Below, piece after piece: positions 8,175-28,382 of a DNA stretch of 34,551 bases (position 1 is the stretch's first letter; the number at the start of each line of letters is the position of its first letter). The position numbers were made by a program, and so were the translations under genes. The DNA lies in assembly GCA_017882705.1 (NCBI GenBank), contig JADGOZ010000097.1, positions 1 through 34,551 of the forward strand, given 5' to 3'. Below the pieces are notes generated by a model. That model saw only the letters and a list, made by a program, of their open reading frames with translations, did not search any database and was not told the origin of the DNA. Origin of the DNA: Candidatus Nanopelagicales bacterium (GTDB lineage: Bacteria; Actinomycetota; Actinomycetes; S36-B12; CAIYMF01).

Positions 8175-8261
8175 CTCCGACCAGAACGGGCACACCCATC
8201 GTGAGATGGGGTCGCAAAGCCGGGGGACTCTCGCGAGCCTGCCCTGCTGCCTCGGTTGAGG
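8175..8261 (+). promoter_or_regulatory. Cyclic-di-GMP-I (GEMM) riboswitch candidate
   Basis: The core of the class I c-di-GMP aptamer is recognisable. GGGCACACC is followed by a P2 hairpin CCCATC-GTGA-GATGGG (8195-8210) with a GNRA-type loop, then the near-invariant CGCAAAGCC (8213-8221). A P3 arm follows in which GGG/CCC and GG/CC segments enclose a small loop, and then a GGTT segment at 8254-8257. CTCCGACC (8175-8182) can pair with GGTTGAGG (8254-8261) with one mismatch. The first A of CAAAG, which stacks between the ligand guanines in the known structure, is present. The 3-prime boundary and the cytosine that pairs with the ligand are less clear. It lies 40 bases upstream of a pilin gene, a classic context for this RNA. 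Confidence 0.8.
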
Positions 8262-8300
8262 ACCTTCGTGTCGGCAGTGATCGTCCCGGAAGGAACGACC
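8262..8300 (+). promoter_or_regulatory. Pilin ribosome site and possible translational expression platform
   Basis: GGAAGGAA (8288-8295) is the ribosome site for the ATG at 8301. It is flanked by TCGTCCC (8281-8287) and GGAACGA (8292-8298), which can form a hairpin with one mismatch that buries it. CCTTC (8263-8267), immediately after the aptamer, is also complementary to GAAGG (8289-8293). There is no T-run, so control of translation is more likely than termination. The pairing model is inferred. Confidence 0.5.
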
Positions 8301-8723
8301 ATGCTCGCTCGCGTCCGCAAGTCCATGGAGGACAAGGAGCAGGGTTTCACCCTGATCGAGCTCCTCGTCGTCATCATCATCATCGGCATCCTCGCCGCCA
8401 TCGCCATCCCGGTCTTCCTCAGCCAGCGCCAGAAGGGCTGGGACGCCGCGGTGAAGTCCGACCTCCGCAACGCCGCCACGGCCGAGGAGACCTACCTCAC
8501 CGAGCAGAGCACCTACACCGACGTCTTCGCCGACCTCACGGCCAAGGGCTTCAAGCAGAGCGACCTGGGCAACTACAAGGTCGGCAACACGGCCATCGTC
8601 GCCACGTCGGACGTCGGCAACGCGTACTGCCTGACCGCCACCTCGAAGTCCGGCACGGCGTTCTTCTACGACAGCTCGGTCGGTGGCTTCACCACGAAGT
8701 GCCAGGCACCGAACCTCAAGTAG
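8301..8723 (+). CDS. Type IV pilin-like major subunit
   Basis: This is a 140-residue prepilin with a 15-residue charged leader and a class III cleavage site after Gly15 (EQG-FTLIE). The mature N-terminus is Phe with Glu at position 5, then a hydrophobic helix (LLVVIIIIGILAAIAIPVFL). A globular C-terminal head follows, with Cys110 and Cys134 able to form the usual disulfide loop. Such proteins are cleaved by a PilD-type peptidase and assembled into surface pili for adhesion or twitching. No pilus motor, platform or peptidase gene lies in this window, so the subunit is orphaned here. Expression is probably gated by the upstream c-di-GMP riboswitch, and a strong hairpin follows the stop. Confidence 0.93.
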   Translation: MLARVRKSMEDKEQGFTLIELLVVIIIIGILAAIAIPVFLSQRQKGWDAAVKSDLRNAATAEETYLTEQSTYTDVFADLTAKGFKQSDLGNYKVGNTAIVATSDVGNAYCLTATSKSGTAFFYDSSVGGFTTKCQAPNLK

Positions 8724-24551: not shown

Positions 24552-25370
24552 TCAGGCGGTGCCGAAGGCGCTGCCCGGACCGGACACGTCGAGGCCGCCA
24601 TCGACCACGATCGTCGTCCCCGTGACGTAGTCGCCGGCGGGCGAGGCGAGGAAGGCGATCATCGCGGCGACCTCGTCGGCCGACTCGAGGCGACCGGCGG
24701 GGATGACGGTGGAGACCTGCGCGGGATCCAGCCCGTAGCGGTTCCAGGCCTCCGTGTGCACGATCCCGGGCGCCACCGCGACGACCCGGACACCGTGGCG
24801 ACCCCACTCGACCGCGAGCGTGCGGCTCAGCGACTCGACGGCGGCGCGAGCGGCCGACGAGTGCGCCATGCCGGGCATCCCGCGCCGCGGCGACATCGTG
24901 ACGCTCACGACCTTGCCGTACCCCGACGGGATCATCGATCGTGCAGCCACCTGCGTGGTGACGTACCACGTGGCATCGAGGTTGAGGCGGGTGACAGCCC
25001 GGAACCCCTTGTACGACACGGACTCTGCGGGTGCCACGAACTGACCGCCGGCGTTGTTCACCAGGATGTCGATGCGCTCGAGCTCGGCCAGGACCACGTC
25101 GAGCATGGCGTCGACGTTCTCGGGCTCGCGTACGTCGCACGGCACCGTCACCACGCCGTGCACGGCTCCCGCGTCCGCGGCGATCGACGCCGTCTCCCTG
25201 AGGGCGTCCTCGCGGCGGCCGGTGACGGCCACCTGCGCGCCGAGCGACGCCAGCAGCAGCGCGGTGGCCCGGCCGATGCCGCTGCCACCACCGGTGACGA
25301 GCGCAGTCCGCCCGTCGAGACTGTGCGGAGCGAGGACGGCGAGGGCGTCGGGACGCGAGGGAGCGGTCAC
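24552..25370 (-). CDS. Short-chain dehydrogenase/reductase with unusual active site
   Basis: This is a 272-residue SDR with the Rossmann motif TGGGSGIG, NNAGG in place of NNAG, and the C-terminal PAGRLESADEVAAMIAFLAS / DGGLDVSG region. The catalytic YxxxK is absent: the sequence at that position is MAHSSAARAAVESLSRTLAVEW. This departure is seen in enoyl/dienoyl-CoA reductase-like and related SDR groups that act on acyl-CoA rather than simple alcohols. Cofactor preference is probably NADP(H), from GRR after strand 2. TAGCCT (minus strand, 25382-25377) ends 6 nt before the GTG start, so it is likely leaderless. The substrate is unknown. Confidence 0.86.
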   Translation of the reverse strand: MTAPSRPDALAVLAPHSLDGRTALVTGGGSGIGRATALLLASLGAQVAVTGRREDALRETASIAADAGAVHGVVTVPCDVREPENVDAMLDVVLAELERIDILVNNAGGQFVAPAESVSYKGFRAVTRLNLDATWYVTTQVAARSMIPSGYGKVVSVTMSPRRGMPGMAHSSAARAAVESLSRTLAVEWGRHGVRVVAVAPGIVHTEAWNRYGLDPAQVSTVIPAGRLESADEVAAMIAFLASPAGDYVTGTTIVVDGGLDVSGPGSAFGTA

Positions 25371-25465: not shown

Positions 25466-26356
25466 TCAGAGCAGGAGGTCGACGGGGCCGGGGGCGAACG
25501 AGCGGCCGAGGACGCTCGCGGCGACCTCGAGGCCGGCGCGCGTCCCGCCGTCCATCGTGACGGCGCCGACGAGCGCCTGGACCTCGTCCGCGACCGACCG
25601 TCGGTCGATGGGGTCGCTTCCCACCACCAGCCCGAGGTCGTGAGCGCGCGCCGCGAGAGCGGCGTTGGACGTCGACGCGCGGCGTTCCTCGCTCATCTCG
25701 GCCTCGGTGGCCCACGGGGCCTCGACGTACTGCGCCGTCGAGAACGCCGCCTCGAGCACGGCGTCGCCGACCACGGCGAGCCTGCGCCGGGCCGCTCCCC
25801 CGTCCGCGGCCGCGCCGTACCAGGCGTGGGTGACCGGCTCGTGGCCGCACACCCGCGCGGCGGTCTCGAAGCGGTCGTCCGCCCCGGCCTCGGGCACACC
25901 TGCGCGCAGGGGCACGTCACGGAGCCCCGGAGCGACGACGAGGTGGGTCGCGACCTCCTCGGCCGCCCCGATGCCGGAGTCGGCCCAGGCAGCTCCGATG
26001 GCGGCCTCGATCCGGTCGCCGAGCCGGTGGTTCGACGCCGAGAACGTCCGCACGTCCGGCAGACCGCGACGCGCGGCCACCCTGCCAAGCGCGTGGTCGG
26101 ACACCAGGGCCTGCTGCTCACCGCTGACCACGGAGAGATCCCCCTCGCTCCACGGCTCGATGCGGACGAGCGACTGCAGCAGCACGGCATCGAGGAGCGC
26201 GTCACCGACGTACTCGAGCCGCTGGAAGAGGTGGCCGCGCGGGTCGACGAGGGCGTCGACGTAGGCACGCTCGTGCAGCTCGAGGCCGAGGGCGCGGTCG
26301 AGGTGCGCGACGTCGAGGACGAGGTCGCCGTCGAGACGGTCGCGCCAGCCGGTCAT
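25466..26356 (-). CDS. Tandem RNase III domain protein, no dsRNA-binding domain
   Basis: This is a 296-residue protein with two RNase III-like halves. Domain 1 (about 1-140) has RLEYVGDALLD and GDRIEAAIGAAW. Glu48, Asp52, Asp114 and Glu117 align with the four catalytic carboxylates of bacterial RNase III. Domain 2 (about 165-285) has RRLAVVGDAVLE, EERRASTSNAALAARAHDLGL and VADEVQALVGAVTMDGG. It keeps Asp198 and Asp257 but has Ala194 and Gln260 in place of the two glutamates, so it is probably inactive. The protein may form an intramolecular pseudo-dimer with one cleavage centre. There is no C-terminal dsRNA-binding domain. It is not linked to smc or fpg, the usual neighbours of rnc. Confidence 0.78.
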   Translation of the reverse strand: MTGWRDRLDGDLVLDVAHLDRALGLELHERAYVDALVDPRGHLFQRLEYVGDALLDAVLLQSLVRIEPWSEGDLSVVSGEQQALVSDHALGRVAARRGLPDVRTFSASNHRLGDRIEAAIGAAWADSGIGAAEEVATHLVVAPGLRDVPLRAGVPEAGADDRFETAARVCGHEPVTHAWYGAAADGGAARRRLAVVGDAVLEAAFSTAQYVEAPWATEAEMSEERRASTSNAALAARAHDLGLVVGSDPIDRRSVADEVQALVGAVTMDGGTRAGLEVAASVLGRSFAPGPVDLLL

Positions 26357-27441: not shown

Positions 27442-28125
27442 TCAGCTCTTGGCGACGAAGACGTGCGAGGCGGTGGCGACGTCGAGCTCGGCGTACTCGC
27501 CGGCGCTGCCGATGAGGAACCCGCCCGGTGACGTGACGACCTTGACCGTCGCGCCTGGCAGCGCGCCCGCACGCCGCAGCGCCGCCATCAGCCCCGCGTC
27601 GGTCTGGATCGGCTCGCCGATGCGCACGATGGTGACGCGGGTCGAGGAGTCGCGCACGACCTTGTCGAGAGTGGTGAGTCCGGCGAGGTCGGTGTCGGCC
27701 GACTCCTGGTCGAGCTCGACCAGGCCGGGGATCGGGTTGCCGTAAGGCGAGACCGTGGGGTGGCCGAGGATCTCGAGGATGCGGCGCTCGACCGTCTCGC
27801 TCATGACGTGCTCCCAGCGACACGCCTCCGCGTGCACGTCCTCCCACTGCAGACCGATGACGTCGACGAGCAGGCACTCCGCGAGGCGGTGCTTGCGCAT
27901 CACGCGGGTCGCCATGGCCCGGCCGTCGGCGCTCAGCTCGAGGTGACGGTCGCCCTCGACGGCGAGGAGGCCGTCGCGCTCCATCCGCGCCACGGTCTGC
28001 GAGACCGTCGGACCGGACTGGCCGAGGCGCTCCGCGATCCGGGCGCGCAGCGGCGTGATCCCCTCCTCCTCGAGCTCGAAGATCGTGCGGAGGTACATCT
28101 CCGTGGTGTCGATGAGGTCGCTCAC
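27442..28125 (-). CDS. ideR: Iron-dependent repressor IdeR/DtxR
   Basis: This is a 227-residue iron-activated repressor. The winged helix occupies residues 4-70 (LRARIAERLGQSGPTVSQTVARMERDGLL), dimerisation and metal binding residues 71-140, and an SH3-like domain the C-terminus. With the GTG at 28125 as residue 1, every IdeR metal ligand falls on its known number: Met10, Cys102, Glu105, His106 (site 2) and His79, Glu83, His98 (site 1). This confirms the start. AAGGACG precedes it. It represses iron uptake genes when Fe(II) is plentiful. It is monocistronic and divergent from the photolyase gene; no iron-box was recognised nearby. Confidence 0.96.
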   Translation of the reverse strand: MSDLIDTTEMYLRTIFELEEEGITPLRARIAERLGQSGPTVSQTVARMERDGLLAVEGDRHLELSADGRAMATRVMRKHRLAECLLVDVIGLQWEDVHAEACRWEHVMSETVERRILEILGHPTVSPYGNPIPGLVELDQESADTDLAGLTTLDKVVRDSSTRVTIVRIGEPIQTDAGLMAALRRAGALPGATVKVVTSPGGFLIGSAGEYAELDVATASHVFVAKS

Positions 28126-28382
28126 GGTCGTCCTTCGTCCTTGTCGATCCCGGGACGCGCACAGGGGTCCCCGGGCAACGCCGGGCCGCGCGTCTGACGA
28201 GGCCATCCTGTCCTACACCGTGCGCTGACGCAGCGAGCCACGAAGAGTCGCACTGTCTCTCACGTCACGCCGGATGCGCCTTGAGGTGGGATCAAGGGCG
28301 GTTTCGTCCATCGCAACGTCCCCGGCCCGTGACCGTGGTGCGCGAACGGGCGGTCGGAGCCGACTCGCCCTAGCCTCGCGGT

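Follow-up and report, generated by a model that had tools for sequence, protein, structure and literature searches.

The window, by which we mean the whole 34,551-nt stretch of DNA analysed, encodes on its minus strand a 296-residue protein in which two RNase III domains follow one another in a single chain, the first with a complete set of catalytic carboxylates and the second with an incomplete one. We favour, with a probability of roughly 60%, the view that this is a second, specialised RNase III, namely a single-chain pseudo-heterodimer with one active half that would cut one strand of a structured RNA. Related proteins with the same division into a complete and an incomplete half are found in three genera of uncultured actinobacteria, which we designate g1 (the genus of the window), g3 (a second genus of the same family) and g63 (a genus of another family, f30). 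The features discussed below are collected in Table 1.

Table 1. Features of the tandem RNase III gene and its surroundings (window coordinates).
Feature	Position	Strand	Basis or remark
CDS of tandem RNase III protein P0002, 296 aa, ATG start	25466..26356	minus	ATG at 26356, stop codon 25466-25468
RNase III domain 1, residues 25-145	25922..26284	minus	Pfam on half protein; 4/4 residues in 10/10 complete members
Domain 1 catalytic codons	E48 26213-26215; D52 26201-26203; D114 26015-26017; E117 26006-26008	minus
Domain 1 Q45		minus	Gln where the signature has its first Glu
Variable linker, residues 146-172	25841..25921	minus	low identity among 5 orthologues
Pseudo-RNase III domain 2, residues 173-290	25487..25840	minus	Pfam on half protein, AlphaFold, residue table
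Domain 2 codons at the equivalent positions	A194 25775-25777; D198 25763-25765; D257 25586-25588; Q260 25577-25579	minus
NlpC/P60 peptidase gene, PF00877	26457..27239	minus	upstream, 100 nt before the RNase III start
c-di-AMP (ydaO/yuaA) riboswitch, RF00379	27040..27214	minus	before the NlpC/P60 gene; Rfam 63.2 bits
Short-chain dehydrogenase gene	24552..25370	minus	directly downstream, conserved neighbour; Pfam and synteny
DtxR-type repressor gene	27442..28206	minus	upstream
Perfect 22-bp inverted repeat, 10-nt loop	25399..25452	none	follows the RNase III stop codon and ends before the next gene

Domain architecture, catalytic residues and predicted structure

Pfam searches recovered the PF00636 domain twice in the chain (whole protein E 3.8e-17). 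When the halves were searched separately, each exceeded the 27-bit cut-off of this model, residues 1-150 with E 2.9e-8 (34.9 bits) and residues 170-296 with E 5e-8 (34.1 bits); hence, neither match leans on the other. This bears out the sequence-only reading of this DNA, which had proposed one intact and one degenerate RNase III domain in the same polypeptide. Against the NCBIfam RNaseIII model the protein scores 59 bits, below the cut-off of 166.25, and the codon-position G+C of the gene (0.82/0.51/0.93) resembles that of the clear neighbouring genes. The absence of a dsRBD claimed in the same reading also stands: no Pfam match to this domain was obtained in the 296-residue protein up to E 1, and the AlphaFold model is all-helical, without strands. 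There was likewise no Pfam match to a helicase, DUF283 or PAZ domain, the chain stopping after domain 2. Across the family the chains are about 255-296 residues long, with a g63 homologue at 255.

The catalytic carboxylates E48, D52, D114 and E117 occupy the places in domain 1 that had been assigned to them; we take their E. coli RNase III equivalents to be E41, D45, D114 and E117. A survey of homologues for these carboxylates, which had been put forward as a check, showed that all 10 complete members from the three genera keep E-D-D-E in domain 1, while in none of the 10 is the domain 2 set complete (alignment A2). As a control, 73 of 74 distinct ordinary RNase III sequences read E-E-D-D-E (the signature Glu plus the four carboxylates), and the remaining one is a contig-cut fragment showing D-E alone; these sequences were picked from 86 loci by a profile of 28 rnc domains chosen by the motif ERLE..GD, which itself fixes three of the five compared positions. 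The first Glu of the signature is replaced by Gln in domain 1 of all 10 complete members, and the same is seen in an aligned Giardia Dicer sequence. In the g3 and g63 members, reading by eye further revealed a CxxC motif in domain 1 between the signature helix and the next helix (L048, L049, L050, L051, L010 and L012) that is not present in the window's genus.

Domain 2 has lost different residues in different lineages. It reads A-D-D-Q, A-T-D-Q or A-N-D-Q in g1, E-A-D-E in g3 (three of the four residues present) and R-S-S-E in g63, where the first letter depends on the alignment, being a gap in a separate domain alignment. The earlier claims on this domain thus hold for the window protein and have to be narrowed beyond it: both aspartates are kept there as D198 and D257, while position 198 is T or N in three of the six orthologues of the genus; and the replacements A194 and Q260 are fixed in all six but differ elsewhere. 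Since they are fixed in g1 alone, the alignments indicate that A194/Q260 is a genus trait, the family trait being the combination of one complete and one incomplete half. As the g3 version keeps three of the four residues, its second site may retain a weak activity.

It could be argued that both domains are non-catalytic in practice and that the protein serves as a factor that binds RNA or associates with ribosomes, for which mL44 of mitochondrial ribosomes and plant RNC1 serve as models. While the missing dsRBD match, the degenerate domain 2 and the Gln in the domain 1 signature would all suit such a role, the invariance of the domain 1 carboxylates in all 10 complete members, which come from three genera, even as domain 2 drifts, makes it unlikely, because a complete site is not expected to persist once catalysis has been given up.

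AlphaFold2 gave confident two-domain models both for the window protein (six-row alignment; pLDDT 87.7, pTM 0.90) and for a g63 member (ten-row alignment; pLDDT 90.9, pTM 0.91). In Foldseek searches of the PDB with these models, every match at E<=0.001 was to Drosha, Dicer or a Dicer-like protein (27/27 for the window protein and 22/22 for the g63 member), with alignments of at least 263 columns, gaps included, and TM-scores by query of 0.50-0.67. Because these superpositions have an rmsd of 4.9-12.1 A, the predicted two-domain arrangement appears alike rather than identical to that of Drosha and Dicer. Bacterial RNase III chains are found lower in the lists, from rank 31 and 30, with TM-scores by query of 0.32-0.40. 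Concordantly, a profile search of PDB sequences placed Drosha first (8.5e-15), the best-matching stretch spanning domain 1 into domain 2. Domain 2 is thus RNase III-like in structure prediction, as had been anticipated. Among predicted models of viral proteins, the four best matches are RNase III proteins (TM-score by query 0.59-0.61, two at E<=0.001) from a Satyrvirus, Bodo saltans virus, an ascovirus and a marseillevirus; the matches to the model are long, but the proteins belong to viruses of eukaryotes, are 539-728 residues in length and show 10-12% identity.

Pairing within the chain was judged from pTM together with these long structural matches, and AlphaFold may be biased towards the familiar RNase III dimer. 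An arrangement with a different stoichiometry has two chains dimerising through their first domains into an ordinary two-cut RNase III, leaving domain 2 as an outward accessory. Such a dimer would be in keeping with the homodimerisation of bacterial RNase III domains and with the presence of one fully equipped domain 1 in each chain; however, it sits poorly with a pTM of 0.90-0.91 across both domains of the single-chain models and with their best matches being two-domain chains of Drosha and Dicer, and we regard it as quite unlikely.

In the favoured reading, domains 1 and 2 of one chain would pair in solution as a pseudo-heterodimer. Domain 1 would constitute the catalytic half, with its four carboxylates holding the metal ions and cutting one strand, whereas domain 2, as the pseudo-enzyme half, would not cut but would supply the rest of the dimer interface and of the RNA groove. 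Since an RNase III active centre cuts a single strand, a pair with one working centre should cut once; accordingly, a chain would cut base-paired RNA once, in one strand, where ordinary RNase III makes two staggered cuts. Heterodimers of E. coli RNase III were reportedly studied by Conrad in 2002 and by Meng and Nicholson in 2008. A precedent comes from the trypanosome editing endonucleases, in which competent and incompetent RNase III proteins pair and one strand is cleaved (PMC9508840). As a dsRBD is absent, the choice of any specific substrate would have to come from the domain surfaces, a mode of selection proposed for Mini-III.

Phyletic spread, selection and descent

The family is present in 6 of 11 g1 genomes, two g3 genomes and four g63 genomes, and where compared between genera its complete members show 25-38% identity. 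A profile of the six g1 orthologues recovered it in 6 of 166 genomes of the order (1 of 40 genera; E<=1e-10) and did not find it in the other five g1 genomes; in a draw of 394 genomes of the class it added four genomes, all of family f30. The idea of an orphan of one genus, which the first profile had suggested, was dropped once rescoring of loci revealed two-domain proteins in f30 and in two g3 genomes (G012 and G015). With a ten-row profile, run on the 394 class genomes (a sample of a larger group) and the 166 order genomes with at most 6 or 14 candidates scored per genome, strong matches (best E <=1.7e-46) were confined to g1, g3 and g63; none of the other matches listed exceeds 55.1 bits, and they resemble ordinary rnc. 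The order to which the g63 genome G188 belongs has the tandem protein in 4 of 4 genomes.

On a wider scale, the family-profile search covered the window's own phylum and viral contigs. A phylum-wide draw of 281 genomes recovered the window's genome alone (E<=1e-17). PF00636 itself matched in 287 of 296 genomes of the phylum, with two matches in three genomes besides the window's (G565, G696 and G615, those of the last being on different contigs); this survey hardly detects degenerate second domains, and tandem proteins may have been overlooked by it. An exact-peptide-pattern scan of GTDB 220 contigs returned three loci, and two scans of viral contigs yielded no comparable protein. A phage or plasmid origin was considered and set aside, tblastn giving a single weak one-domain match in phages and another in plasmids, as was an anti-phage defence system, with 0 PADLOC families for the tandem protein and two neighbours.

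Two genes are incomplete. That of G007 (g1) is split across two contigs, and one of its two fragments was kept in alignment A1, while A2, A3, the selection test and the tree were made without the gene; the g63 gene of G223 is truncated at a contig end and does not figure in A2, A3 or the tree. All 10 complete genes are free of stops. For the 10 pairs formed by the five complete g1 genes, domain 1, the linker and domain 2 have mean amino-acid identities of 0.68, 0.36 and 0.62 and mean uncorrected pN/pS of 0.234/0.461, 0.436/0.623 and 0.252/0.496, respectively. These substitution patterns show both halves to be under purifying selection and, by the same measures, domain 2 is conserved almost as tightly as domain 1 despite its incomplete site. 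Outside g1, domain 2 is weak by sequence, its PF00636 matches falling below the cut-off in one g63 member (E 4.9e-4, 21.3 bits) and one g3 member (E 0.014, 16.6 bits); in the former case, the AlphaFold model supports its identification as an RNase III domain.

A quick maximum-likelihood analysis of 48 domains, for which the program warned of long branches, placed the first domains in one group of the tree (SH-aLRT 93), the second domains in another (79, with long branches) and rnc in a third (97); 28 of the 29 rnc loci tried were included, L054 having been missed by the motif and left out. This separation into distinct groups fits a single old fusion, with the domain 2 group weakly supported. 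Domain 1 of g3 groups with that of g63 (99) and not with g1, the other genus of its family, a placement suggestive of transfer or paralogy.

The tandem gene coexists with a canonical rnc. As the sequence-only reading had expected, the window's genome encodes a separate RNase III with a dsRBD on another contig (C147), where it adjoins fpg and smc. Of the 12 genomes with the tandem gene, 10 also have a full rnc match; the match is partial in G237 (73% complete), and none was found in G015 (78% complete). Separately, G009, given as 95% complete with 9% contamination, has no PF00636 match at all. Such coexistence is what one would look for if the tandem protein regulated the ordinary RNase III by pairing with it or by competing for substrate, but this is a highly improbable role for a chain that already contains its partner domain and conserves a complete active site.

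Gene neighbourhoods and riboswitches

In g1 the gene order is DtxR, c-di-AMP riboswitch, NlpC/P60, tandem RNase III and dehydrogenase. NlpC precedes the tandem gene in all six genomes that have it (in G007, on the contig bearing the 5' fragment), with a gap of 19-127 nt in the five where both genes were called (G001 19, G002 51, G007 64, G000 100 and G010 127), and DtxR precedes NlpC in all five whose contigs extend that far. The riboswitch was detected in five g1 loci (the window, L037, L038, L039 and L040), the sixth contig beginning inside NlpC. In the window, the called NlpC/P60 reading frame starts so far upstream that it runs through the riboswitch; the real start probably lies downstream of it, below 27040. 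Another riboswitch of the window, a c-di-GMP-I element (RF01051, 44.4 bits) at 8179-8254 on the plus strand, precedes an ORF at 8256-8723 in whose product we noted by eye the pilin-like stretch GFTLIELLVVI.

In the sister-genus genomes G013 (L140) and G016 (L139), DtxR abuts the dehydrogenase directly, and neither an NlpC or RNase III gene nor a riboswitch was matched there. From this adjacency, the NlpC and RNase III genes look like a single cassette that was gained or lost. No dehydrogenase match (E<=1e-60) was found in the five g1 genomes without the tandem protein, and an empty site was accordingly not observed in them. This conserved setting bears on whether the gene could be a decaying duplicate or an assembly artefact, a concern raised by the member genomes being drafts in many contigs and by the gene not being found in five of 11 genomes of its genus. 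We give this next to no credence in view of the same NlpC/P60 and dehydrogenase neighbours in six genomes (one with the gene split over two contigs), the constraint on both halves of stop-free genes and the homologues in two further genera.

In Corynebacterium glutamicum, nlpC is known to be preceded by a c-di-AMP riboswitch, which has been tested and seemingly affects translation of the first gene only (PMC9960051). c-di-AMP might control the RNase III gene too, although this does not follow.

The contexts differ between genera: in g3 the tandem gene neighbours MaoC, SSB and an ABC-F-like protein, while in g63 it is found with sbcD, sbcC and an acyltransferase, the sbcC stop overlapping the RNase III start (GTGA). 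An example of the latter is G188 (L108:7719-12639, minus strand), in which the tandem gene comes after sbcD and sbcC. With NlpC and the short-chain dehydrogenase as the g1 partners, no common partner emerges, and a common functional neighbourhood was discarded as an explanation. The same holds for the idea that the substrate is a conserved structured RNA close to the gene: the 22-bp hairpin is missing at that place in other genomes, and hairpins between NlpC and the RNase III gene vary from genome to genome. In the window, this hairpin is the longest perfect inverted repeat and the sole one with arms of at least 13 and a loop of 3-24; it is a possible terminator or substrate candidate.

Relationship to known RNase III systems

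Drosha and Dicer typically have both active centres complete. They constitute classes 2 and 3 of the RNase III classification, as defined in PMC5141509, and likewise combine two RNase III domains in one chain, an architecture known chiefly from such eukaryotic enzymes. The window protein differs from them in being bacterial, in having no helicase, PAZ or dsRBD match and in the incompleteness of one active centre; the echo of Dicer and Drosha pointed out by the sequence-only reading thus holds for the domain layout but not for the accessory domains or the second site. Ordinary rnc (class 1) has the same catalytic domain and the same four carboxylates as domain 1; however, it comprises one domain plus a dsRBD and is a separate gene in the window's genome. 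Mini-III (class 4) is a bacterial RNase III fold without a dsRBD (PMC5141509), as here, but with one domain per chain acting as a homodimer. Hence, the window protein fits none of the four classes as given there: it lies outside class 1 because it has two domains and no dsRBD, outside class 4 because it has two domains, and outside classes 2 and 3 because it has no further domains and one of its sites is incomplete.

Two trypanosome systems offer further parallels. The KREN endonucleases with their KREPB partners combine a competent and an incompetent domain into a unit with a single catalytic site (PMC9508840), and the window protein also has one complete and one incomplete site per unit; nevertheless, the KREN and KREPB halves are separate proteins with zinc fingers that operate within a eukaryotic editing complex, whereas here they are fused. 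The trypanosome Dicer-like RNase IIIs have two RNase III domains without helicase or PAZ (PMC2837639), a domain layout like that of the window protein, but are eukaryotic. The mode of action of the window protein would come closest to that of a two-domain chain of the Dicer kind whose halves divide the labour as KREN and KREPB do. In PMC4571572 the paired RNase III domains of Dicer are linked to eukaryotes, and among the papers listed in searches of an open-access library we found no example of a bacterial two-domain RNase III.

A broader proposal, which we advance tentatively and at somewhat short of even odds, is that these proteins form a bacterial RNase III class, of an origin separate from that of Dicer and Drosha, in which a fused active/inactive pair nicks one strand of a defined structured RNA; in one genus the gene would share a cassette with a cell-wall peptidase gene and its c-di-AMP riboswitch, and its product would perhaps process that transcript. 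The fused pair with one complete half means that two RNase III domains per chain exist in bacteria too. At about 255-296 residues, it offers a minimal chain for testing strand selection by one active centre and an inactive partner, and it could be a source of a small natural dsRNA-nicking enzyme.
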